A stretch of DNA of 64,000 bases from an alpha proteobacterium BAL199 (GCA_000171835.1 ABHC01000014.1:62001-126000); one strand, 5' to 3'; counted from the stretch's first letter, positions 32,287-45,117 are shown. The notes: generated by a model not told the origin, from the letters alone. Numbers and translations are program-made.

Positions 32287-33741
32287 ATGAGCCGGACGAC
32301 GGTGATCCGTAATGCCGATTGGGTGGTGGCTTGGGATTCGACCGCCGGGCCGGACGGCACTGGCGACCACGTCTACCGTCGGGGCGCCGATGTGGCGTTC
32401 CGAGATCATGAGATCGTCCATGTAGGGGCTGGTTATGACGGTCCCGTCGACGAGACGGTGGACGGCTCCGGTCGGCTGGTTCTCCCGGGCTTCGTGGACA
32501 TCCACTCGCATCCCAGCTCCGAGCCCGGCAACAAGGGGCTCAACGAGGAGCTTGGCTCACCCCGTCTCGGGCAGTCGTCGCTGTACGAATACATGCCGGT
32601 GTTCCGCATGTTGCCGGAAGGCGCGGCTCACGCCACGCGCTTCGCGATCTGGGAAATGCTGCGCAGCGGCGTGACGACGTTCTGCGACCTGTCCGGCGCG
32701 CGCGATGGCTGGGTTGACGAAGTTGCCGACACCGGCATCCGCGGCGTTTTGTGCCCGATGTACCGTTCGGCGACCTGGACCACCAAAGACGGTCACTCCG
32801 TCGTTTACGACTGGGATGAGGCGGCCGGGGAACGCGGACTCGAACGTGCGGTCGCGATCATCGACGAAGCCGACCGTCACGGCTCCGGCCGGATGTCCGG
32901 CATGATGGGGCCGTCGCAGATCGACACCTGCACGCCGGCGCTGATCCAGGAGAGCTTCCGGGTCGCCAAGGACCGCGGCATCACCATGCAGATTCACGCC
33001 GCGCAGAGCGTGGTGGAGTTCAACGAGATGACCCGGCGTCACGGTATGACGCCGATCGAATGGCTGGACGACATCGGCGTGCTGGACGCGGGAACGATCG
33101 TCAGCCATGGGATTTTCCTGAACGACCACCCGTGGCTGCACTGGCCGCAAGCCGACGATTTCGGGCGCCTTGTCCGATCCGGTGCAGCGGTCGCCCACTG
33201 CCCGAACGTGTTCTGGCGGCGCGGCATCGCGCTCAATCATGTCGGCCGCTACATGAGCGCCGGCATTCCCCTCGGGCTCGGCACCGACACCTTTCCGCAC
33301 AATTTTCTGCATGAGATGGAGATCGCCATGGTCGCTGGCCGGCTGATGGCCGGCGACTTCACCAACGCCTCGACCTGGCAGATCTTCCACGCCGCGACCG
33401 TTGGTGGCGCACGGGCGATCGGTCGTCACGACATCGGCAAGCTGGAACCGGGTTGCAAGGCCGACATCGTACTGGTCGACGCAGCCCACCCGTACATGCA
33501 GCCGCTGCGCGATCCGATCCGCAGCCTGATCTACTCGGCTGGCGACCGGGCGGTGACCGACGTCTATGTCCACGGCAAGCGGGTAGTGTCGAGCGGTGCG
33601 GTCGAGACGATCGACATCGCCGCCACCGCGGCCAAGCTCAACGAGTTCCAGCAGATCACGATCTCGGGTGTCCGTCAGCGCGATTGGGCTGGACGAGCCA
33701 TCGATGACATGTCGCCGATGGTGTTCCCAGGCGCCGACTGA
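32287..33741 (+). CDS. Amidohydrolase family protein (TrzA/cytosine-deaminase-like)
   Basis: A 484-residue cytoplasmic metal-dependent hydrolase. The HxH metal motif appears in FVDIHSHPSSEPG; a further ligand histidine is in TMQIHAAQSV, another in IVSHGIFLNDH, and the catalytic aspartate in GLGTDTFPHN. The pattern is that of chlorohydrolase/deaminase members (AtzA/TrzA/SsnA branch); the substrate is inferred to be a nitrogen heterocycle or amide. Its direct neighbours are a TRAP binding protein (divergent) and a D-hydantoinase, fitting a nitrogen-compound catabolic locus. It ends just 3 bases before the convergent FkbM gene. Confidence 0.88.
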   Translation: MSRTTVIRNADWVVAWDSTAGPDGTGDHVYRRGADVAFRDHEIVHVGAGYDGPVDETVDGSGRLVLPGFVDIHSHPSSEPGNKGLNEELGSPRLGQSSLYEYMPVFRMLPEGAAHATRFAIWEMLRSGVTTFCDLSGARDGWVDEVADTGIRGVLCPMYRSATWTTKDGHSVVYDWDEAAGERGLERAVAIIDEADRHGSGRMSGMMGPSQIDTCTPALIQESFRVAKDRGITMQIHAAQSVVEFNEMTRRHGMTPIEWLDDIGVLDAGTIVSHGIFLNDHPWLHWPQADDFGRLVRSGAAVAHCPNVFWRRGIALNHVGRYMSAGIPLGLGTDTFPHNFLHEMEIAMVAGRLMAGDFTNASTWQIFHAATVGGARAIGRHDIGKLEPGCKADIVLVDAAHPYMQPLRDPIRSLIYSAGDRAVTDVYVHGKRVVSSGAVETIDIAATAAKLNEFQQITISGVRQRDWAGRAIDDMSPMVFPGAD

Positions 33742-33744
33742 GCG

Positions 33745-34764
33745 TCAGGCAGCCTTGGGTTCGAACACCAGCTTCGGGTTCGGGTCCCGGGGGTCGGGCA
33801 GGATGTCGGCCATGCCGGTGATCGGGCGTAGGCCATCGTCGGTCAGTTGGAACATCGACCAGCGCGCAGGATCGAAGGGCTTCAGCAAATCCTCGGCCTG
33901 TCGGCGGTAGAGCGTTATCAGGTGCGGATGGAACTCGACGACGAAGATGGTCCGTCCGGTCTCGATAATCCGTCGCGCGCCTTCCAGCACACCGATCTCG
34001 TGGCCCTCCACGTCCACCTTCACGAGCTTCGGCAGGAGGTCGGCATCCAGGAACGCATCGTCGAGGGCCATCATCGGTACGAAATCGTCGACGATCGAGC
34101 GCGGCTCGTTGCGGTTGAAGCGTCCCGTCTGCCCCTCAAGCTGTGTGCCCGGATTTGCCTCGATCCGAGGCATCATCGACAACCCGGATCGAGACGATGC
34201 GCCGACGTGCAGTGCCCGGATCAGATCAAACCCATTAATCGTCGCCATCTGCTCGATCAGCGGCATCAGGTCGCGCTGAATCTCCAGTGCGAATACCGAA
34301 GCGCCGGTGGTGGCGGCGAAGGCACTGATGTAGCCGACATTGGCGCCGACATCGACAAACACATCCTCCGGTCCGAGGCGCGCCGTCACGAAGTCGATCA
34401 ACGTCTTCTCGTAGAGCTGGTCGTATCCATCGACCATCTTCTTGAACTGCGTCGACGAGTAGTCGTTGATCGGAAACATGATCTTGCGACCGTTCGGCGC
34501 GGTCATCGACCATGCTTTGGTCTGACCGTAACGGGTAGATCGGTTCTGCAATGCCTGCACCGCCCGACTGATCCGTCGAGCGAGATAGCCGGCCAGGACG
34601 TTCTGCGGCGTCAGGCCGCCAAGGCGAAGCGCCCTTGAGAACTTGCTCAGTTCGTCACGCGAGTATGGCGGCCAGTTTCCAGCCAGCACGGCATTGATGT
34701 CATCGGGGGCCTGCACCGCCTTGCGACGCTCACGGTCTCGCGGTCCGAAGGCAGGCAATGACAT
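33745..34764 (-). CDS. FkbM-family methyltransferase, copy 1 of the array
   Basis: A 339-residue SAM-dependent O-methyltransferase of the FkbM family. The SAM-binding motif is VFVDVGANVGYISAFAATTG, and downstream blocks VKVDVEGHEIGVLEGARRII and VEFHPHLITLY are typical of FkbM. A family-specific inner motif WSMTAPNGRKIMFPINDY precedes the fold and recurs in the other copies. Such enzymes methylate hydroxyls of sugars or polyketides. The start was set by alignment with copies 2-4 (MSLPAFGPRDRERRKAV); other ATG codons lie at 34767, 34785 and 34788. The C-terminus ends DPRDPNPKLVFEPKAA, nearly the same as in the other copies. Confidence 0.88.
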   Translation of the reverse strand: MSLPAFGPRDRERRKAVQAPDDINAVLAGNWPPYSRDELSKFSRALRLGGLTPQNVLAGYLARRISRAVQALQNRSTRYGQTKAWSMTAPNGRKIMFPINDYSSTQFKKMVDGYDQLYEKTLIDFVTARLGPEDVFVDVGANVGYISAFAATTGASVFALEIQRDLMPLIEQMATINGFDLIRALHVGASSRSGLSMMPRIEANPGTQLEGQTGRFNRNEPRSIVDDFVPMMALDDAFLDADLLPKLVKVDVEGHEIGVLEGARRIIETGRTIFVVEFHPHLITLYRRQAEDLLKPFDPARWSMFQLTDDGLRPITGMADILPDPRDPNPKLVFEPKAA

Positions 34765-34950
34765 CATTTTGGGGAGCTTGGACATCATCAGACTATGACA
34801 GGCAGTCATTCGAAACTCTACCTCGATCCCGATGAACTTCCGTCGGCCTGTGGCCGGAATCCGGGTCTGCCGCATGACGCTTTGTCATGCCGAAACGAAG
34901 GTGCAAGACTTTGCGCCGAACACGGTGCAACGCGCGATCTGGAGGTTGGT

Positions 34951-36411
34951 GTGAGCGAGTTTGATGTGATTGTCCGGGGCGGCACGGTGGTGACGGCGTC
35001 GGAGACGATGCGGGCCGATGTCGGGGTCAAGGACGGCCGAATCGTGGCGCTCGCCGAATCGCTCGGCGGCTCGGCGTCCCGAGTGGTCGATGCGACTGGC
35101 CGATACGTGATGCCGGGCGGAATCGACAGCCACTGCCACATCGAGCAGCCGTCTTCGACCGGCGGGAAGAATGCCGAAAGCTGGGAAAGCGGAACCCGCT
35201 CGGCGGCCTGCGGCGGCACGACCACGGTGATCGCGTTCTCCAGCCAGGAGAAGGGCGAGGGGGTCAAGTCCCAGGTCGACGCGTATCACGAGAAGGCCAA
35301 GCAGGCCTGCATCGACTACAGCTTCCACATCATCGTGTCGGACCCCAGTGATGCGGTGGTGCGCGACGAGTTGCCCGGGTTGATCGAATCGGGCCTGCGC
35401 TCGATCAAGCTGTTCATGACCTATCCGAAGAACCGGGTCGACGACCGCGAGATCCTGCGGATCTTCGAGGTGGCGCGCCGGCACGGGGCGCTGGTGTGCG
35501 TGCACGCCGAGAACCACGACGCCATCATGTACATGACCCAGAAGCTGCTGGATGCCGGCCTCGGCCATACCAAGTACCATGCCTGGTGCAAGCCGGCCCT
35601 GGTCGAGCGGGAGGCCACGACCCGGATCATCATGCTGGCCGAGTTGATGGACCAGCCAATCCAGATCTTCCATGTCACCTGCGAGGAAGCAGCTGAGGAG
35701 ATTCGCCGAGCCCAGGCCCGCGGCTTGAAGATCTTCGCCGAGACCTGCCCGCAGTATTTCGTGCTGACCGCCGACGACCTGGACGGCTCGCAGCGCGATG
35801 GAGCCCGGGTGCTGTGCTCGCCGGCGCCCCGGTCGGTCGCCGACCAGCAGGCGTTGTGGAACCACGTGCGCACCGGGACCATCGGCAACGTCACGTCCGA
35901 CCACGCGCCCTACAACATGGACGCGCCGGACGGGAAGTTCTGGTCCGGCGACAACGCGCCGTTCAGCCAGATCGCCAATGGCGTGCCCGGGCTGGAGACC
36001 CGGATGCCGATCTGCTTCCACGAAGGCGTGGTGAAGGGCCGGATCGACCTGCAACAGTTCGTGGCGCTGACCTCGACCAACGCGGCCCGGCTGTTCGGCA
36101 TCTACCCGCAGAAGGGAACGATCGCGATCGGCGCCGATGCCGACATCGTGGTCTGGGATCCGGAGCGCAAGGTTCGGATCACCCAGGACATCCTGCACCA
36201 CGACACCGACTACACCCCGTATGAAGGCATGGACGTGGTCGGTTGGCCGGCGGTCACCCTGTCGCGCGGCCGGGTGGTGTGGAACGAGGGCGAGGTCGAC
36301 TGCCAGGCCGGCTGGGGCCGGTTCCTGGGCCGGGCGCCATACGACTACATCAAGCCGCGCGGTGTGTTCCCGACCCCGTTCAATCCGATCACCGGCACGA
36401 TAGAAAGCTGA
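34951..36411 (+). CDS. hydA: D-hydantoinase / dihydropyrimidinase
   Basis: A 486-residue cyclic-amide hydrolase. It shows the HxH zinc motif in GIDSHCHIEQPSS (H61 and H63), the carboxylated bridging lysine K153 in LRSIKLFMTYPKN, ligand histidines in CVHAENHD and IFHVTCEE, and the catalytic aspartate in VTSDHAPYN, all of the dihydropyrimidinase family. It opens hydantoins or dihydropyrimidines to N-carbamoyl amino acids. The matching D-carbamoylase is encoded at 44170, on the same strand but 7.8 kb away. A GTG start at 34951 has a clear GGAGG ribosome binding site; the open extension to 34795 is rejected. Confidence 0.92.
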   Translation: MSEFDVIVRGGTVVTASETMRADVGVKDGRIVALAESLGGSASRVVDATGRYVMPGGIDSHCHIEQPSSTGGKNAESWESGTRSAACGGTTTVIAFSSQEKGEGVKSQVDAYHEKAKQACIDYSFHIIVSDPSDAVVRDELPGLIESGLRSIKLFMTYPKNRVDDREILRIFEVARRHGALVCVHAENHDAIMYMTQKLLDAGLGHTKYHAWCKPALVEREATTRIIMLAELMDQPIQIFHVTCEEAAEEIRRAQARGLKIFAETCPQYFVLTADDLDGSQRDGARVLCSPAPRSVADQQALWNHVRTGTIGNVTSDHAPYNMDAPDGKFWSGDNAPFSQIANGVPGLETRMPICFHEGVVKGRIDLQQFVALTSTNAARLFGIYPQKGTIAIGADADIVVWDPERKVRITQDILHHDTDYTPYEGMDVVGWPAVTLSRGRVVWNEGEVDCQAGWGRFLGRAPYDYIKPRGVFPTPFNPITGTIES

Positions 36412-36472
36412 TCGGCCCAAAGAGTCGGGGCTCGACAGTGGCCTTCGTGGATCCGGAAGAAGCCAGCCTTGC

Positions 36473-38028
36473 ATGACTGATATTGAGAAATGCAAACGGT
36501 TCATCATTGAGAATCTCAATGATCGGCCGTTGTTCCGGAAATACACACTCAATACTGTATGCCGACCGGAGTTCCAGAATTCGGACGTCAGCTTTCTTCT
36601 GCGTTATGTATTTCAGTGTGCGAAGAGTGACGAGCGCTACTCGTATCTGATTGCCTATCTTGTGCTGTCGAACGGTCGGGATCTAAAGGACGAACTGATC
36701 GAGAAGTCCGAGTCGATGCGGCTGTTCTACCAGGCGTTCCGAAGCTGGATCGTGGAATGCCTGGTTGGCAACGGCCAAGCCATGCCGCCGGTGGTCGATA
36801 CCTTCGGCATGGCGTTCGTGTCCGATGTTCTGGATCGAGCCGAAGGGCATCTGCTCAGCTTGCGGGCGTTTCGCGAAGCGGTGAAAACCTCGGTCCTGCG
36901 AGGCATGGTCGATGCGGTGTTCCGCCGAATGGGAAGCGAGTGGATCCTGTCGCCGAGCTTCGTCGGAAACATCGGGCACTTCGCCTATGCGGCGACGATC
37001 CTGGAGTTGCAGAAGACCAACAAACTAACCGACCAGCCCGTTAAGATCCTGACGAAGCGAACTTCCAACGAGTACATGCGGAAGTTCTTCGCACCGTATC
37101 TCGTGACCCGCCGCCCGGAGGGGGTGCATTACATCGAGATGATCAGCGCGCGTAAGCGCCACTACATGGTGGACGGTCGTTGGGCGACGATCGGCGAGTT
37201 GCTGTCCGAGGCGGTGCAGGTCTGGGCGACTGGGCGACCCTTCGCGTCCATCGACCCGGAAACGCGCGAGCGCGGCGACTTGGAACTGGGGCGCTCGGGG
37301 TTCCGTCTGATGCACCGATCGTCACCCTGCACGTGCGCGAGGCTGGGTACATTCACCATCGCGCGGATTCGGCTAGTCTCCGTGACGCGCATCTGGCCGA
37401 CTACCGTGCCGCGATCGGTGGTTTGGTCGCCGCTGGCAACTATGTGATCCGACTCGGTGACCGCAGCATGACGCCGGCCGAGCCTCAGGTCGGCCTGATC
37501 GACTATCCGTTCACCGACGCGAAGTCGGACTGGATGGACGTCTATCTGGCCAGCCGTTGCCGGTTCCACATTGGTACATCGTCCGGTATGTCGTTCGTGC
37601 CATTGCTGTTCGGCCGTCCGGTGCTGTTCACCAACTGGATCACCATGGCCCACGTCGTGAGCGCGCCGAGCGTGGTGACTCTGCCGAAGTTGCTGCTCGA
37701 TCCGGAGGGTGGTGTGGTGCCGCTGGAGGACTACTGCGGTCGCCACGGCCAGATCTTGGAGCGCGCTGATGCGGTTCTGCACGGCTTGTCGTTTCGCGAC
37801 AACACCCCGGAGGAGCTTGCCGACGCGGTCCGGTTGATGGACCGCCACATTGATCCGTCAACCGGCCGGCTGAACGTTCCTCCTGAGTTGTTCGAAGAGG
37901 TACAGGCGGTGTTCGCTGCTTCGCCTCTAAAGACACGTCCGCAGATCCCGCCCGCCTTCTGGTCCGAGCACTACGCCGATCGGCGATTGTCGAGGTTCAT
38001 GACGGTCGCGGCTCGAACACCAGCTTAG
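36473..38028 (+). CDS. Glycosyltransferase-like protein (TIGR04372-type), copy 1, frameshifted
   Basis: Homologue of the intact protein at 40368. The first frame (36473-37447) is collinear with it through SARKRHYMVDGRWATIGELL and DPETRERGDLEL, then switches. The other frame (to 38028) resumes exactly with LGVPSDAPIVTLHVREAGY, and includes RLGDRSM, DAKSDWMDVYLASRCRFHIG, TSSGMSF and FGRPVLFTNW. The break falls in a GGGG run at 37288-37291; one added base gives 518 residues aligning without gaps at that point. It could be a sequencing error or a genuine null allele. The pattern of nucleotide-sugar-binding RLGD...FMGTSSG-type motifs matches putative glycosyltransferases of the TIGR04372 group. 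The first 60 codons are unusually A/T-rich, and the end overlaps the convergent FkbM gene by 32 bases. Confidence 0.8.
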
Positions 38029-39010
38029 GGTTCGGGTCGCGGGTGTCGGGGCGGACCTCCGTCATATTCGCCAGGGGACGCAGCCCGTCGTCGGTCAACT
38101 GGAAGATCGACCAGCGGTCCCGGTCGAAGGGAGCCAGTAGTTCGTCGGCCCGCCGTCGGTAGATGCCGATCAAGTGCGGGTGAAACTCCACCACGAAGGT
38201 TGTTCGTCCGGCGGCGATGATCCGTCGCGCGCCTTCGAGCACGCCGATTTCGTGGCCCTCTACGTCAATCTTCACAACTCTCGGGAGCAGATGAGGCGCC
38301 AGGAAGAGGTCGTCGAGCGCCATCATCGGTACGAAGTCGTCGATGACAGACCGTGGGTCCTCGCGGCTGGCCTGGACCGTCTGGTCATCGAGTCGGTTTC
38401 CCGGCGTGGCCTCCATTCGCTGGATCATCGACATTCCGGACCGGGTCGACGCACCGACATGCATGGCGCGCATCTGGTCGAAGCCGTTGATCGTCGCAGT
38501 CTGCTCAATCAGCGGAATCAGGTCGCGCTGGATCTCCATCGCGAAGACCGATGCCCCGGTGGTGGCAGCGAACGCGCTGATGTAGCCGACATTGGCGCCG
38601 ACGTCTACGAACACATCGCCGAAGCCGAGGCGAGCCGCCACGAACTCGATCAGGGTCCATTCGTAAAACTGGTCGTATTCGTCGACCATCTTCTTGAATT
38701 CAATTGAACCGAAATCGTTGATCGGGAACAGGATCTTCTGCCCGTTCGGCGCCGTCATGGCCCAGGTTTGGGTTTTCCCGTAACGGGCCATCCGGTGCTG
38801 CAGGGCGTGCAGGATTCGCGTCAGACGTCGGGTGCAATGACGGGAATAGGGTTCGTCCGGCGTTACCATGCCGCGTCGGATGACCTTCGGCAGGGCCGCC
38901 AGTTCTGTCCGCGAGTAGGGGGGCCACCGCGAGCCGAACAGCGCGGCAAAGTCGGCGGGGTCTTCAACGGCTTTGCGGCGCGCTTCGTCGCGCGACTTGA
39001 AGGTAAACAT
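37997..39010 (-). CDS. FkbM-family methyltransferase, copy 2 of the array
   Basis: A 337-residue intact copy. SAM motif VFVDVGANVGYISAFAATTG is at about residues 133-152; the block KIDVEGHEIGVLEGARRII and C-terminus DPRDPNPKLVFEP follow. It is most similar to copy 1 (for example the DFGSIEFKKMVDEYDQFY and DYSSTQFKKMVDGYDQLY segments). The start ATG at 39010 gives MFTFKSRDEARRKAVEDPAD. The last 32 bases overlap the end of the convergent glycosyltransferase-like gene, suggesting that the two have been fixed together as a module. Confidence 0.9.
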   Translation of the reverse strand: MFTFKSRDEARRKAVEDPADFAALFGSRWPPYSRTELAALPKVIRRGMVTPDEPYSRHCTRRLTRILHALQHRMARYGKTQTWAMTAPNGQKILFPINDFGSIEFKKMVDEYDQFYEWTLIEFVAARLGFGDVFVDVGANVGYISAFAATTGASVFAMEIQRDLIPLIEQTATINGFDQMRAMHVGASTRSGMSMIQRMEATPGNRLDDQTVQASREDPRSVIDDFVPMMALDDLFLAPHLLPRVVKIDVEGHEIGVLEGARRIIAAGRTTFVVEFHPHLIGIYRRRADELLAPFDRDRWSIFQLTDDGLRPLANMTEVRPDTRDPNPKLVFEPRPS

Positions 39011-39093
39011 GATCCTCGTCCATCGCTCGATGAGGCGTAGACGGATTATGACAGCCGGACTGCCGTTTCTCTACACATGTTCCCGGAGGCCGA

Positions 39094-40122
39094 TCAATCC
39101 CGTCTGGTGCGAAGCGGTTCGAACACCAGCTTGGGGTTGGGGTCGCGCGGGTCTGGAACCACGTCGGCCATGCCGTCGATCGGGCGCAGGCCGTCGTCGG
39201 TGAGCTGCGAGCGCCGCCACCGTTCGACGGGGAACGGCGCCAGCAGTTGTTCGGCGGTTCCGTCTTACAGGCCGACCAGATGCGGGTGGAACTCGACCGC
39301 GAAGGTCGTGGTCCCGTGCTCGATGATCCGGTGTGCGCCGTCGATTACCGCAATCTCGTGACCCTCGGCGTCGATCTTGACCATGCTCGGCCACAGGCGG
39401 TCGCGACCGAAGGCGTCGTCGAGGGTGATCATCGGCACGAAGTCGTCGGCGATCGACCGCGGATCGTCGCTAGTGATGCTTCGGTTCGCCGAGGTGAAAC
39501 CGGCCCCCGGCGAGGCGTTGATCCGGGGGATGGCACCCAGCCCGGCCCGGCCCGAGGCACCAGCGTGCAGCGGCCGCAGTGTGTCGAAGGCGTTGAGCGT
39601 GGCCAGTTGCTCGATCAGCGGGATCAACTCGCGCTGGAGCTCGATGGCGAAGACCGAGGCGCCCGTCGTGGCCGCGAACGCGCTGATGTAGCCGACATGG
39701 GCGCCGACATCGATGAACACGTCACCGGGGCCGAGGCGCGTAACAACGTACTCGATGAGGGCTTTCTCGTAGTCCTGCCCGTATTCGTCGGCCATTGCCT
39801 TGAAGGCGACCGCTCCCGGCTCGCCCAGGGGGAACAGGATCTCCTGGCCGTTCGGCGCCGTCATGCTCCAGGTTGCGGTCTTGCCGTAGCGGGCGGCCCG
39901 CTTCTTGAAGACCGTGACGACCTGCATCAGCCGCCACAGCCAGGCCCGGTGTCGTATGTCGACCGCGTCGGGCAACGTGGCCGCGCGGCGCAGCGTGGCG
40001 GGAAGGCGTCCGAGATCGGCGCGGGTTCGCGGCGGCCATGCCGAAGCGAGCAGGGCGGAAGCGTCGTCCGGCGCCTCCAGAACCCGCCGCTTCGCGTCCA
40101 ATGATGATTGAGAAATCGGCAT
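39094..40122 (-). pseudogene. FkbM-family methyltransferase, copy 3, with in-frame stop
   Basis: The gene reads 285 residues from MPISQSSLDAKRRVLEAPDD through the SAM motif VFIDVGAHVGYISAFAATTG and KIDAEGHEIAVIDGAHRII to VEFHPHLVGL, where codon 286 is TAA at 39265-39267. The other copies have tyrosine here (HLITLY, HLIGIY), so a TAC or TAT has become TAA. Beyond it the same frame continues for 56 residues (DGTAEQLLAPFPVERW to DPRDPNPKLVFEP) with no further change, so the mutation is recent or a base-calling error. The truncated product would lack only the last fifth and may still fold, since the SAM core is complete. Confidence 0.82.
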
Positions 40123-40367
40123 GGCGTGCTTGATCGATCCTGGTTGGCGGCCGGCGCTGCCGAAACGGTATCATGCGTCTTTCGGGCGGGCGAGCCGACG
40201 GTCTGAAGCGGCCCGACACCGACGTTTGTTTTCCCAGAGTGGCGCTGCGATACTTTGCGTTCCTGTTGTCGGCAGCTGGTTCGCTGAACTCTGCGTTGCC
40301 AACGGGATTTTATGCCGAATCGGAACACCGATGCCTTTGCTCGATCAACCGACCAAGCGAATCGTGA

Positions 40368-41879
40368 ATGAATATTGATAATTTGAAACGCTCAATAATA
40401 TTGAATCTGAGTGATATGCGGTATGTGAAGCGACATTTGCTGTCACTCGTCTTTGAAAGCAAATGCACTCACGCTCATGAAGAGCGGTTTCTGAAATACA
40501 TCTTTCGACTGGCGCATTTTGTGGAGTTCTTTGAATACCTGATCGCCTACGCGATGCTGTCGGGCGGGCGGCGACTGGATCCGGCGCTGATCGGGCGGTC
40601 GCCGCGGGTGCAGGGGTTGTATCCGTTGTTCGCCGAATGGATCGAGCGCTATTTCGTGAACGGGGAAGCCACCCGCCCGCCAGTGAACGAAACCCAGGGC
40701 ATGGCGTTTGTGTCGATGATGCTCGACGGCGCCGAGGCCCACCTGTTGAGCGTCCGGGCCCTGGCCGAGGCCGAGAAGGTTTCGACCGCAAGAGCGATGA
40801 TCGACCGGTTGTTCCAGACCCAGGGCGACGCCTGGATCCTGTCGTCAAACTTCGTCAGCAACATCGGTCATTTTGTCTATGGCGCGACACTGCTGGAACT
40901 GCAGGGGCGCGGCCGGCTGACCCGGCAAACCATGCGGGTGCTGACCGGAACCTCTCGCAACACGTTCATGTTGCAGGCGTTTCAGCCGCATCTGCTGGCC
41001 GAAATGCCGGCCGGCGTGCAGTACGCCGAGATGATCAGCGCCCGCAAACGTCACCGGATGGCAGACGGGCGCTGGGCCACCATGAGCGAGTTGGTGTCCG
41101 AAGCGGCAACGGCCTGGGCGACCGTCCGGCCGTTCGCCGGCGTCGACCCCGAAACCCAGTCGCGCGGCGATGCCGCGTTGGCGGAACTGGGTGTGCCGCC
41201 TGACGCGCCGATCGTCACCCTTCACGTCCGCGAGGCCGGCTACAACGACAACATCGCCGAGGCGATGAGCCTGCGCGACGCTCGGATCGCCGACTACCGC
41301 GACGCGATCGCCGCACTGGTCGGCACCGGTATCCAGGTGGTCCGGCTCGGTGATCGGAGCATGACGCGGGCCGAGTCCCAGGACGGGCTGATCGACTACC
41401 CGTTCACCGACGCGAAGTCGGACTGGATGGACATCTATCTGGCGGCGCGATGCCGGTTCCACATCGGAACCTCGTCCGGCATGTCGTTCGTCCCGCTGAT
41501 GTTCGGCCGACCGGTGCTGTTCACCAACTGGATCACTCTGGCGCACATCGTCTGTTCGCCGAGTGTCGTCACCGTGCCCAAGCTGCTGCTCGACCAACAA
41601 GGCGGTCTCGTGCCGTTGGCGGAGTACTGCGGGCGCCACGGCCATATCCTGGAGCGCAGCGATGCCGCGCTGCACGGGCTGTCGTTCCAGGACAACACGT
41701 CCGAGGACCTGGTCGACGCGGTCCAACTGATGGATCGGCACATTGATCCGGCAACCGGTCGATTGTCGGCGCCGGCCGGGATGTTCGGCGGCCAGCAGGC
41801 GGTGTTCGCGGCATCGCCGCTGAAGACCCGACCGCAGATTCCGCCAGGATTCTGGCGCCGTCACTACGCCGGCCGGTGA
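40368..41879 (+). CDS. Glycosyltransferase-like protein (TIGR04372-type), copy 2, intact
   Basis: A 503-residue soluble protein. The N-terminal half (about residues 1-260) is helical and has no known motif; the C-terminal half is a probable nucleotide-sugar-binding domain with RLGDRSM near residue 326, DAKSDWMDIYLAARCRFHIG, then TSSGMSFVPLMFGRPVLFTN from about 367, the pattern of TIGR04372 putative glycosyltransferases. It is the intact reference for the frameshifted copy at 36473. The first 60 codons are clearly A/T-richer than the rest (ATGAATATTGATAATTTG). It ends 12 bases before the convergent FkbM copy 4. The acceptor and sugar are unknown. Confidence 0.83.
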   Translation: MNIDNLKRSIILNLSDMRYVKRHLLSLVFESKCTHAHEERFLKYIFRLAHFVEFFEYLIAYAMLSGGRRLDPALIGRSPRVQGLYPLFAEWIERYFVNGEATRPPVNETQGMAFVSMMLDGAEAHLLSVRALAEAEKVSTARAMIDRLFQTQGDAWILSSNFVSNIGHFVYGATLLELQGRGRLTRQTMRVLTGTSRNTFMLQAFQPHLLAEMPAGVQYAEMISARKRHRMADGRWATMSELVSEAATAWATVRPFAGVDPETQSRGDAALAELGVPPDAPIVTLHVREAGYNDNIAEAMSLRDARIADYRDAIAALVGTGIQVVRLGDRSMTRAESQDGLIDYPFTDAKSDWMDIYLAARCRFHIGTSSGMSFVPLMFGRPVLFTNWITLAHIVCSPSVVTVPKLLLDQQGGLVPLAEYCGRHGHILERSDAALHGLSFQDNTSEDLVDAVQLMDRHIDPATGRLSAPAGMFGGQQAVFAASPLKTRPQIPPGFWRRHYAGR

Positions 41880-41891
41880 GTTGGTGCGCTG

Positions 41892-42905
41892 TTACCGGGG
41901 GAGCGGTTCGAACACCAGCTTCGGATTGGGATCGCGCGGGTCGGGCGTGACATCGGACATGCGCCGGATCGGCCGCAGGCCCTCGTCGGTGAGTTGCGAG
42001 TACCGCCAGTAGTCTGCCGGAAACGGCGCCAGCAGCTGACTGGCCGTGCCGTTGTAGTTGATGATCAAGTGCGGATGGAACTCGACGACGAAGGTCGTGC
42101 GTCGCTGCTCGATGATCCGGTGCGCGCCGTCGACCACGGCAATCTCGTGACCCTCGACGTCGACCTTGACCATGGCCGGCCACAGGCCGTCCCGGCCGAA
42201 CGCGTCGTCCAGCGTGATGATCGGCACGAAATCCTCGACGATCGAGTCCGGTTCGTCCTGCACGAAGCGCTGCGCGTCGCTTTCGATCTGACCGCCGGGC
42301 GTGGTGTCGGTCCGCGCGATCATCGACAGCCCGGAGCGACGCGACGCGCCGGCGTGCAACGGCCGCAGCGTGTCGAAGGCGTTGATCGCGGCGAGCTGTT
42401 CGATCAGCGGGATCAGTTCGCGTTGGATCTCGATCGCGAAGGCGGCAGCACCGGTGGTGGCGGCGAACGCGCTGATGTAGCCGACATGGGCGCCGACATC
42501 GACGAACACGTCCCCGGGGCGCAATCGCTCGCAGATGAAGTTGATCAGCGTCTTCTCGTAGTCCTTGCCGTACTCGTCGGCCATCGCCTTGAAGGCGACC
42601 GCGCCGGGGTCGTCCAGCGGAAACAGGATTTCCCGGCCGTTCGGCGCCGTCATGCTCCACGTCTTGGAGCGGCAATAACGGCCGGCCTGTTTGCTCAATA
42701 GTCCGGCAAGCTGGGTTAGCCGGGACAGGAAGTAGCGCGGGCCGTCGGCGCCCGGCAGGGTCGCCGCCTGGCACAGAACCCGGGACATGCGTCCGAGGTC
42801 ACTGCGGGCGAAGGGCGGCCAACTTGATGCCATCAACGCGGCCGGATCGGTCGGCGCTTCCACTGCGCGCCGGCGCGCCTCGGCCTTGGACTTGTAGATG
42901 TGCAT
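41892..42905 (-). CDS. FkbM-family methyltransferase, copy 4 of the array
   Basis: A 337-residue protein with SAM motif VFVDVGAHVGYISAFAATTG, the block KVDVEGHEIAVVDGAHRIIE and the C-terminus DPRDPNPKLVFEPLPR. It pairs most closely with copy 3 (DDPGAVAFKAMADEYGKDYE against the same segment in copy 3, GEPGAVAFKAMADEYGQDYE). The start ATG at 42905 gives MHIYKSKAEARRRAVEAPTD; the open frame continues to 43493 but that part is antisense to copy 5 and has no family similarity. It is 86 bases downstream of copy 5 on the same strand, so the two may be co-transcribed. Confidence 0.9.
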   Translation of the reverse strand: MHIYKSKAEARRRAVEAPTDPAALMASSWPPFARSDLGRMSRVLCQAATLPGADGPRYFLSRLTQLAGLLSKQAGRYCRSKTWSMTAPNGREILFPLDDPGAVAFKAMADEYGKDYEKTLINFICERLRPGDVFVDVGAHVGYISAFAATTGAAAFAIEIQRELIPLIEQLAAINAFDTLRPLHAGASRRSGLSMIARTDTTPGGQIESDAQRFVQDEPDSIVEDFVPIITLDDAFGRDGLWPAMVKVDVEGHEIAVVDGAHRIIEQRRTTFVVEFHPHLIINYNGTASQLLAPFPADYWRYSQLTDEGLRPIRRMSDVTPDPRDPNPKLVFEPLPR

Positions 42906-42991
42906 CGACGGCTCCGCCCGTTCAGTCGTTGATCGGGACAGGATACCAGCGGCGGCGCACCGCTGCGAGGCTGTCCCCCAAGGGCGCGCGG

Positions 42992-44014
42992 TTACGTGGC
43001 CGGCGGGCGGAACAACAGCTTGATGTTCTCCAGGTCGGGATCGTGCGCGAAGTTCCGATCGGCCGCCGTTACTGGGCGGGTCGTGCCGTCGTCCTGCAGA
43101 ACGTCGCGCTGCCAGTTCTCGGGAATGCAGGCGAACAGGTCCTCGGCCTTGTGGCCGAAATCGCCGATCAGGTGCGGGTGGAACTCGATCAGGAAGGTGG
43201 TGCGCCCGCCGGCGATCAGCGATTGGGCGCCGCGCAGCGCGTGCACCTCGTAGCCCTCGACGTCGAGCTTCACCAGATCGGGGACCACCGGATCGCGGCC
43301 GAACACGGTGTCGAGCCGCACGCACAGGATCGCGTCGAACAGCGCCTTGCGGTAGGCGTCCGGCGGCGGTGCGGCGATCTCGTCGTTGACGCGCAGGCCC
43401 GGGGTCGGATTGAAGCGCAGGTTGAAGATCAGGCCGTCGTGATTGCCGACGGCGGCGTTGATCACATGCGCTCGGTCCAGCTTGTTGGCCCACAGGTTGC
43501 GCCGGACCTCCAGCAACAGGTCGGGGTGCATCTCGAACGCCACCACGATCGCGCCGGCCGCCGCCAGGATGGTGCTGTAATAGCCGACATGGGCGCCGAC
43601 ATCGGCGATCACCGCGCCGCGCCTGGCTTCGCGGACCATCCAGCGCAGCACGCCGGGCTCATAGTCGCGGCCGCCCTCGCGGACCAGGCCGAGGAACGAC
43701 CGGGACGCATCGGTGGCGACGCTGAACGACAACGGACCGACGCCGTCGACCTGTACGGTCTCGAACGGCCCGGTCTGCGCCACGATGCCGTCGCGGTGGC
43801 TGAAGGTATCCAGGGTCCGCTTCAGCGGGCCGCGGTGCCGTTCCAGCGAGGCGGCGGGGATGCCCAGCACCTGGACCCAGTCCAGCAGCTTGCGCGATCG
43901 GGCGATGTCGATGCGCGACCGGGCAACGCCCAGACAGGCGGCCAGGGCCATGGGGTTGGCCGGCTCCTGTGTCGCCTTGGCGAGGGCGAGAATGGCCGGA
44001 CGGTCGGCGGACAT
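42992..44014 (-). CDS. FkbM-family methyltransferase, divergent copy 5
   Basis: A 340-residue methyltransferase clearly different from the other four. It retains the FkbM fold: SAM motif AVIADVGAHVGYYSTILAAA near residue 134, KLDVEGYEVHALRGAQSLIA and IEFHPHLIGDFGHK. It lacks the WSMTAPNG motif and the DPNPKLVFEP ending of copies 1-4, ending instead IKLLFRPPAT, and its N-terminus is different (SADRPAILALAKATQ). It therefore probably has its own acceptor or entered the array separately. It lies 155 bases upstream, divergently, of the D-carbamoylase gene. Confidence 0.88.
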   Translation of the reverse strand: MSADRPAILALAKATQEPANPMALAACLGVARSRIDIARSRKLLDWVQVLGIPAASLERHRGPLKRTLDTFSHRDGIVAQTGPFETVQVDGVGPLSFSVATDASRSFLGLVREGGRDYEPGVLRWMVREARRGAVIADVGAHVGYYSTILAAAGAIVVAFEMHPDLLLEVRRNLWANKLDRAHVINAAVGNHDGLIFNLRFNPTPGLRVNDEIAAPPPDAYRKALFDAILCVRLDTVFGRDPVVPDLVKLDVEGYEVHALRGAQSLIAGGRTTFLIEFHPHLIGDFGHKAEDLFACIPENWQRDVLQDDGTTRPVTAADRNFAHDPDLENIKLLFRPPAT

Positions 44015-44169
44015 GGGCGGCGGCTCCTCGGGCGCTGCGAACCGGAAAACTATAGTCGACCGATGGCCGTGGGTCTTGGAGCGCGCGTCGTCGGCTTATA
44101 CACTGGCCGGCGAGCCTCGGCGTCCGCCGCAAGGCCCTCCGAATCGAGCCGTCGAACGAGGAATCTGTC

Positions 44170-45117
44170 ATGAGCCGCATCATCAACGTGGGCGCCGCCC
44201 AGCTTGGCCCGATCGCCCCGGACGAAAGTCGGGTCAGCGCCGTCAACCGCATGATCGACCTGCTGAAGCAGGCCAAGGATCGTGGCGTGAAGCTGGTGGT
44301 GTTCCCGGAACTGGCGCTGACCACTTTCTTCCCGCGCTACTACGAGCAGGACATCTCGAAGATGGACCACCACTTCGAGCGCGGCGACATGCCGACGCCG
44401 GAGACCCGTCCACTGTTCGAGAAGGCCAAGGAGTTCGGCATCGGTTTCTACCTCGGATACGCCGAACTGACCGAGGGCGGCCATCGCTTCAACACCTCGA
44501 TCCTGGTGGACGATACCGGCAAGATCGTCGGCAAGTACCGCAAGGTCCACCTGCCCGGCCATTCCGAGTACGACGGCAAACGGCCGTGGCAGCACCTGGA
44601 GAAGCGCTATTTCGAACCCGGCGACCTCGGGTTCAACGTCTGGCGCTCGATGGGCGGCATCATGGGGATGTGCATCTGCAACGACCGGCGCTGGCCGGAG
44701 ACCTACCGGGTGATGTCGCTGAAGGGCGTGGAGATCGTCATGCTCGGCTACAACACCCCGGACGTGAACACCTCGGCACCCGAGCCGAACCATCTGCGGA
44801 TGTTCCACAACCATCTGGTCATGCAGGCCAGCGCCTACCAGAACTCCTGCTTCGTGGTGGCGACCGCCAAGGCCGGCATCGAGGACGGCTGCATGCTGAT
44901 CGGCGGCTCCTGCATCATCCAGCCTTCGGGCGAGATCGTATCGCTCGCCACCACCGTCCAGGACGAGTTGATCACCTCGGCCTGCGACCTCGACCTCGCC
45001 AAGATGGGCAAGGAGACGGTGTTCAACTTCGCCAAGCACCGCCGGATCGAGCACTACGGCATCATCACCAGCCAGACCGGCGTGGTCGAGCCGGCGATGG
45101 ATCGGGCGGCGGAGTAA
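44170..45117 (+). CDS. N-carbamoyl-D-amino acid hydrolase (D-carbamoylase), nitrilase family
   Basis: A 315-residue cytoplasmic amidase of the carbon-nitrogen hydrolase family. The catalytic triad is present: E47 in VVFPELALTTFFP, K125 in KYRKVHLPGH and C170 in GMCICNDRRWPE. The segments FNTSILVDDTGKIVGKYRK and YFEPGDLGF closely match the D-carbamoylase of Agrobacterium-type hydantoin pathways. It releases ammonia and carbon dioxide from N-carbamoyl-D-amino acids, finishing the reaction begun by the D-hydantoinase at 34951. Between them lie the methyltransferase and glycosyltransferase array genes, an arrangement that separates genes usually kept together. The ATG at 44170 follows GAGGAA. Confidence 0.93.
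   Translation: MSRIINVGAAQLGPIAPDESRVSAVNRMIDLLKQAKDRGVKLVVFPELALTTFFPRYYEQDISKMDHHFERGDMPTPETRPLFEKAKEFGIGFYLGYAELTEGGHRFNTSILVDDTGKIVGKYRKVHLPGHSEYDGKRPWQHLEKRYFEPGDLGFNVWRSMGGIMGMCICNDRRWPETYRVMSLKGVEIVMLGYNTPDVNTSAPEPNHLRMFHNHLVMQASAYQNSCFVVATAKAGIEDGCMLIGGSCIIQPSGEIVSLATTVQDELITSACDLDLAKMGKETVFNFAKHRRIEHYGIITSQTGVVEPAMDRAAE

Follow-up and report, generated by a model that had tools for sequence, protein, structure and literature searches.

A variable and partly decayed set of FkbM methyltransferase and TIGR04372-type glycosyltransferase genes within a putative catabolic cluster of alpha proteobacterium BAL199

In Enterobacteriaceae and Geobacillus, islands for flagellin glycosylation are reported to contain genes of FkbM-family methyltransferases, and of two closely related strains one may have such a gene while the other lacks it (PMC4875605, PMC5109656). 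An O-antigen cluster is a further reported site (PMC10888714). For the glycosyltransferase family TIGR04372, none of the papers listed in a literature search used this name. Genes of both families lie together in a 64,000-nucleotide stretch of alpha proteobacterium BAL199 (GCA_000171835.1, ABHC01000014.1:62001-126000; contig C56:62001-126000 of the 6.1-Mb genome G000), which is termed the window in the following and which, by genome grouping, belongs to the same genus as Thalassobaculum fulvum (G001). The array is genuine: an accessory set of genes, variable in content and in part decayed. Like the islands and clusters mentioned above, it features a variable content of glycosyltransferases and methyltransferases; unlike them, it is situated inside a catabolic cluster, and genes for flagellin or for O-antigen synthesis were not seen next to it. 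The reading favored here, which we hold to be probable though far from certain, is a fast-evolving accessory locus for sugar decoration. It would reside within a conserved catabolic cluster in Thalassobaculum and a few relatives, and be partly decaying in this genome.

Open reading frame (ORF) analysis and hidden Markov model scans revealed a minus-strand set of five FkbM genes (F1 to F5) and, on the plus strand, two TIGR04372-type glycosyltransferase (GT) genes. Their order is F1, GT1, F2, F3, GT2, F4, F5. The initial annotation had named these seven genes in the same order and orientation, and had overlooked the dihydropyrimidinase gene between them, the frameshift of GT1 and the TAA codon of F3. 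Counted from the first nucleotide of the window, the genes are:

33745-34788 (ORF start possibly up to 34875), minus strand: F1, FkbM-family methyltransferase; PF05050 E 2.8e-8, TIGR01444 E 3.7e-21; same-place orthologue in T. fulvum and G002
34951-36411, plus strand: dihydropyrimidinase (D-hydantoinase), intact, between F1 and GT1, belonging to the core of the catabolic cluster; above the TIGR02033 and PRK13404 cut-offs; 92.6% identical in T. fulvum
36473-38028, plus strand: GT1, TIGR04372-type glycosyltransferase, frameshifted and lying in two frames; C-terminal piece above the TIGR04372 cut-off
37997-39010, minus strand: F2, FkbM-family methyltransferase, 3' end overlapping GT1; PF05050 E 1.9e-10; sister of the F1 clade
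39094-40122, minus strand: F3, FkbM-family methyltransferase with an in-frame TAA at 39265-39267, following residue 285
40368-41879, plus strand: GT2, intact TIGR04372 glycosyltransferase, TIGR04372 E 1e-59; predicted GT-B fold (model pLDDT 91.8)
41892-42905, minus strand: F4, FkbM-family methyltransferase, convergent with GT2 across a 12-bp gap; PF05050 E 7.2e-7, TIGR01444 E 1.9e-19; predicted class-I methyltransferase fold
42992-44014, minus strand: F5, divergent FkbM-family methyltransferase adjoining the nitrilase gene; PF05050 E 1.7e-14; same-place orthologues in G001, G005, G401 and G413

All five FkbM proteins exceed the curated cut-offs of PF05050 (28.1-54.8 vs 22.7 bits) and TIGR01444 (68.4-84.5 vs 37.7 bits), and that of TIGR04372 is exceeded by GT2 (201.5 vs 45 bits, E 1e-59) and by the C-terminal piece of GT1 (C56:99312-99911; 182.5 bits, E 2e-53). 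As first described, F1 resembles F2 (66% identity) and F3 resembles F4 (68%), with 55-56% across the pairs, and F5 is divergent with 29-33% to all. Such homology clearly exceeds what chance would give. The C-terminal DPNPKLVFEP reported for copies 1-4 is present in each of them, while the WSMTAPNG motif reported for the same copies holds for F1, F3, and F4 and reads WAMTAPNG in F2. The S-adenosylmethionine (SAM)-binding motif DVGANVGY or DVGAHVGY is kept in F1-F4, as is KxDxEGHE. The array genes share the family scores and the class-I methyltransferase fold with the FkbM family, the model of F4 matching FkbM 2py6 with Z 13.5 over 168 residues, but differ from it by an N-terminal addition of about 80 residues, mostly helical, and F1-F4 also by the conserved C-terminal end. 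In a sequence search of solved structures, 2py6 was the best match for FkbM, and nothing meaningful was obtained for the GT. An anti-phage role was rejected, as PADLOC gave no more than weak matches (mad2, E 6e-7 to 2e-4), confined to the immediate surroundings of the SAM-binding motif. Carriage by phages was also rejected; a viral-contig scan with F4, which detects close relatives only, gave no relative.

The accessory character of the array becomes apparent at the junction of the dihydropyrimidinase gene and the downstream nitrilase gene in related genomes. The genome set comprises one genome per species, and the comparison is one between species. In at least five genomes of the family (G006, G003, G410, G020, G019), the two genes are adjacent with a gap of 36-61 bp and no insert. 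GT and FkbM genes occupy the junction in six genomes (G000, G001, G002, G005, G401, G413), and the five carriers besides the window genome have one GT and one to three FkbM genes in four arrangements. With HYD for dihydropyrimidinase, NIT for nitrilase and F for a further FkbM gene, the layouts are:

Window: F1-HYD-GT1-F2-F3-GT2-F4-F5-NIT
T. fulvum: F1-HYD-GT-F4-F5-NIT
G002: F1-HYD-F-GT(minus)-NIT
G005: HYD-GT-F4-F5-NIT
G401 and G413: HYD-(382-aa gene)-F-GT-F5-NIT, with TRAP-type (tripartite ATP-independent periplasmic transporter) genes in G413 too

The search of relatives for copy variation, suggested at the outset, found no fixed order with constant copy number between species: related species differ in gene content. 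The convergent 3' ends of GT and FkbM genes, by which the array had been set apart from an ordinary operon, occur in T. fulvum, G005, G401, and G413 as well, and this part of the description stands.

Array and surroundings also differ in their rates of evolution. Between the window genome and T. fulvum, the flanking enzymes are 90-95% and the array genes 57-74% identical. Synonymous divergence (dS) amounts to 0.57-1.05 for orthologous FkbM and GT pairs and to 0.30-0.66 for the flanks, and the ratio of nonsynonymous to synonymous divergence (dN/dS) to 0.18-0.50 and 0.09-0.12, respectively. The GC content at third codon positions (GC3) is 0.75-0.80 in F1, F2, and GT1 compared to 0.82-0.92 in the flanks. 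The mostly higher dS of the array and the lower GC3 of these three genes fit import or exchange, and weaker codon bias could contribute to this contrast. The pairwise dN/dS of 0.18-0.50 indicates that the array genes have been under purifying selection. The physical interleaving with the catabolic genes, and the fact that FkbM-family enzymes take part in natural-product pathways including those of nucleoside antibiotics (PMC9259500), might suggest that a compound on which dihydropyrimidinase and nitrilase act, be it a nucleobase, a hydantoin or something related, is the substrate of the GT and FkbM enzymes. This is regarded as very improbable, because several family genomes have the catabolic genes without GT or FkbM genes at the site, rates of evolution differ strongly between the two gene sets, and the same junction holds other genes in relatives (an 1148-aa ORF with RTX repeats; a 382-aa gene of no Pfam family).

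Two of the array genes are broken. GT1 lies in two frames (36473-37447 and 37180-38028) with a junction near 37289-37291, the frameshift being located at CTGGGGCG, a run of four G, and the TAA codon of F3 corresponds to Tyr in the paralogues F1, F2, and F4. Consequently, only five of the seven array genes are intact. Both lesions look recent, and sequencing error is a possible source of the breaks. The GT of G005 likewise has an in-frame TAA. Together with the lower GC3 of some array genes, these three broken copies would be compatible with an imported cluster whose leftovers are mostly decaying and have no present role. Such a wholesale decay is considered unlikely, as F1, F2, F4, F5, and GT2 are intact with a between-species dN/dS of 0.18-0.50, and the SAM-binding and KxDxEGHE motifs are retained in F1-F4.

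Phylogenetic trees were calculated for the FkbM and GT genes. F1 of three Thalassobaculum genomes cluster together, a grouping supported with 99/96 and 92/92 in two trees, and F2 is their sister. With the F1 clade spanning three species and F2 outside of it, the split between F1 and F2 predates the divergence of the three species' F1 genes. A second clade is composed of F3, F4, T. fulvum F4, and G005 F4, its inner order being without support, whereas F5 stands apart as a lineage of its own, and five genomes have orthologues of it. GT1 and GT2 do not emerge as a resolved pair. The divergence between F3 and F4 and between GT1 and GT2 is about that of orthologues between species, and with identities of 55-68% the FkbM paralogues are old. 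The trees hence relate F1-F4 to each other, contrary to a scenario of unrelated, independently acquired copies, and set F5 apart. The block GT1-F2-F3 was either gained long ago or has disappeared from T. fulvum; for the array genes altogether, we infer gain rather than loss.

The same data bear on the proposal of a self-amplifying or phase-variable cassette, in which recombination or slippage would multiply and switch the copies, giving single cells with differing glycans. FkbM and GT paralogues do lie side by side, gene number differs among species, and one copy is frameshifted and another stop-interrupted. However, the 300-nt direct repeats which F1-F4 have in common show 64-79% identity only, and the longest exact run between two copies is 40 bp. 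Together with paralogue identities of 55-68% and the closer relation of F1 to its counterparts from other species than to F2, this does not support self-amplification. A repeat search of the window found no inverted repeats of at least 20 nt and no long tandem or simple repeats, and the hallmarks of phase variation (invertible segment, long simple repeat, near-identical copies) are all absent from the window. The frameshift of GT1, moreover, coincides with a run of only four G. Phase variation is not supported either, and the cassette is considered very improbable.

Further insight was gained from the GT proteins. The model of GT2 (pLDDT 91.8, 27-sequence alignment) features a GT-B fold from about residue 152, preceded by residues 1-152 which are almost wholly helical. 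Its best matches are the GT9 structure 3tov (Z 16.7, root-mean-square deviation 4.0, 266 aligned residues), heptosyltransferase II 1psw (Z 16.2), and TibC 4rb4 (Z 14.4). The predicted fold is thus common to GT9 heptosyltransferases and TibC, but sequence identity to these is 7-13%, roughly 150 N-terminal helical residues are additional, and a Pfam search including the GT9 model gave no family for GT2 at E 0.001. Compared to the TIGR04372 family, the score of GT2 lies far above the cut-off, although the family model covers only the C-terminal 200 residues; the GTs described here differ by their N-terminal half, which is variable and about 255 residues long, and by the pairing with FkbM, which is rare elsewhere. 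GT1 and GT2 are 47% identical in the N half and 75% in the C half. Gene conversion in the C-terminal half (72% vs 48%) was rejected as the cause, since the GTs of the window, T. fulvum, and G005 show the same contrast between genomes, with 37-51% in the N and 63-75% in the C half. Accordingly, the donor-binding half appears to be conserved, while the variable N half is probably the acceptor side.

The core of the proposed decoration locus would comprise one TIGR04372 GT-B glycosyltransferase convergent with an FkbM gene, accompanied in most carriers by the divergent F5 beside the nitrilase gene. The window species additionally carries the block GT1-F2-F3, in which GT1 and F3 are no longer intact. 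The GT may attach a sugar to a surface acceptor such as O-antigen, exopolysaccharide or flagellin. Hydroxyl groups of the sugar may then be O-methylated by the FkbM enzymes, with every paralogue specific for a particular acceptor or position. While glycosylation and methylation of glycans by the array enzymes are plausible, the substrates, the surface location, and the role of the N-terminal half are what we infer. Flagellin is a possible acceptor, as a Thalassobaculum isolate reportedly has several flagellin genes (PMC12016528). A more specific version, which is decidedly unlikely in this form, sees the TIGR04372 GT and the convergent FkbM enzyme as a dedicated two-enzyme module that adds a sugar and then a methyl cap to a surface protein such as flagellin, with TibC-like chemistry, diversification via the N-terminal acceptor half of the GT, and repeated settlement in the same catabolic junction.

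Several points weigh against a sugar-decoration locus. Beside the array, no gene for nucleotide-sugar synthesis, flippase, polymerase or flagellin was seen, with a part of the window ORFs searched. The FkbM enzyme EreM N-methylates a peptide (PMC9259500). TIGR04372 genes adjoin FkbM genes in just four of 30 loci in a sample of the class, analyzed with a profile built for this purpose and 1.5-kb flanks only; all four belong to this family and two represent this array. Moreover, the forks between F3 and F4 and between GT1 and GT2 lack support, so that either gain of the block GT1-F2-F3 or its loss from T. fulvum would fit.

FkbM genes are numerous in the genus, with 25, 19, and 16 matches in three genomes, and their presence as such is therefore unremarkable. 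A second tandem FkbM pair of the window genome (G000:C65:169787-171941; L051:9787-11941) adjoins a TRAP binding-protein gene near DegT-type aminotransferase and GNAT genes, and similar pairs occur in T. fulvum C12, G002 C3, and G005 C185. At G000:C69:188209-190534 (L050:7209-9534), a TIGR04372 gene comes immediately after an FkbM gene and shares its strand, with a sensor histidine kinase-like gene nearby. Two copies of a 2.2-kb stretch, 99.9% identical, are found at G000:C51:28184-30412 (L132:8184-10412) and on G000:C37 (L133:10476-12704). The stretch contains a 521-aa TIGR04372 gene whose GC3 is unusually low (0.52), and the C51 copy has genes for a DDE transposase, a RepB-type protein, and a resolvase as neighbors.

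The surroundings of the array presumably represent a catabolic cluster for pyrimidine- or hydantoin-like compounds, a reading based on the family names of the neighbor genes. The features at the edges of the array are:

32287-33741, plus strand: Trz/Atz-type amidohydrolase, conserved upstream neighbor; PF01979, best NCBIfam match PRK06151 below its cut-off; 90% identical in T. fulvum
44076-44104, plus strand: candidate promoter TTGGAG-17-TACACT before the nitrilase gene, read by eye and not listed by the consensus scan; TTGGAC-17-TACACT in G005
44170-45117, plus strand: carbon-nitrogen hydrolase (nitrilase or beta-ureidopropionase-like), the other edge of the insertion; PF00795 E 3.4e-52; 95% identical in T. 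fulvum

Scans for consensus promoters and terminators yielded counts close to those in shuffled sequence. Further neighbors are a TRAP solute-binding protein, a class II aldolase-like gene and a YtcJ-like amidohydrolase (the latter two named from sequence only), and one protein of no NCBIfam family. In G002 (C17:200000-219999), the YtcJ, Trz/Atz, dihydropyrimidinase, and TPR genes are all frame-split, probably due to sequencing or assembly errors. In one genus, the 382-aa gene lies directly 3' of the dihydropyrimidinase gene (L120:1500-2648, L121:13176-14324, L123:13231-14379, L119:5082-6230), and it occupies the junction with the nitrilase gene alone in G411 and G412; two copies searched had no Pfam match, and the L045 copy has the look of a SAM-methyltransferase. 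Folate genes (tetrahydrofolate dehydrogenase/cyclohydrolase, cyclodeaminase-like) are found between the Trz/Atz amidohydrolase and the dihydropyrimidinase (L121:10168-11615, L119:2081-3528). In G022, of another genus, the 1148-aa ORF with RTX calcium-binding repeats is located at the dihydropyrimidinase-nitrilase junction (L124:10507-13953).

The comparative picture is that of an accessory, glycan-type gene set amid a conserved catabolic cluster, with empty sites, several arrangements, and decaying copies in relatives. For TIGR04372, a poorly described glycosyltransferase family, the locus provides a link to the GT-B/GT9 fold and indicates the N-terminal half as the diversifying part.

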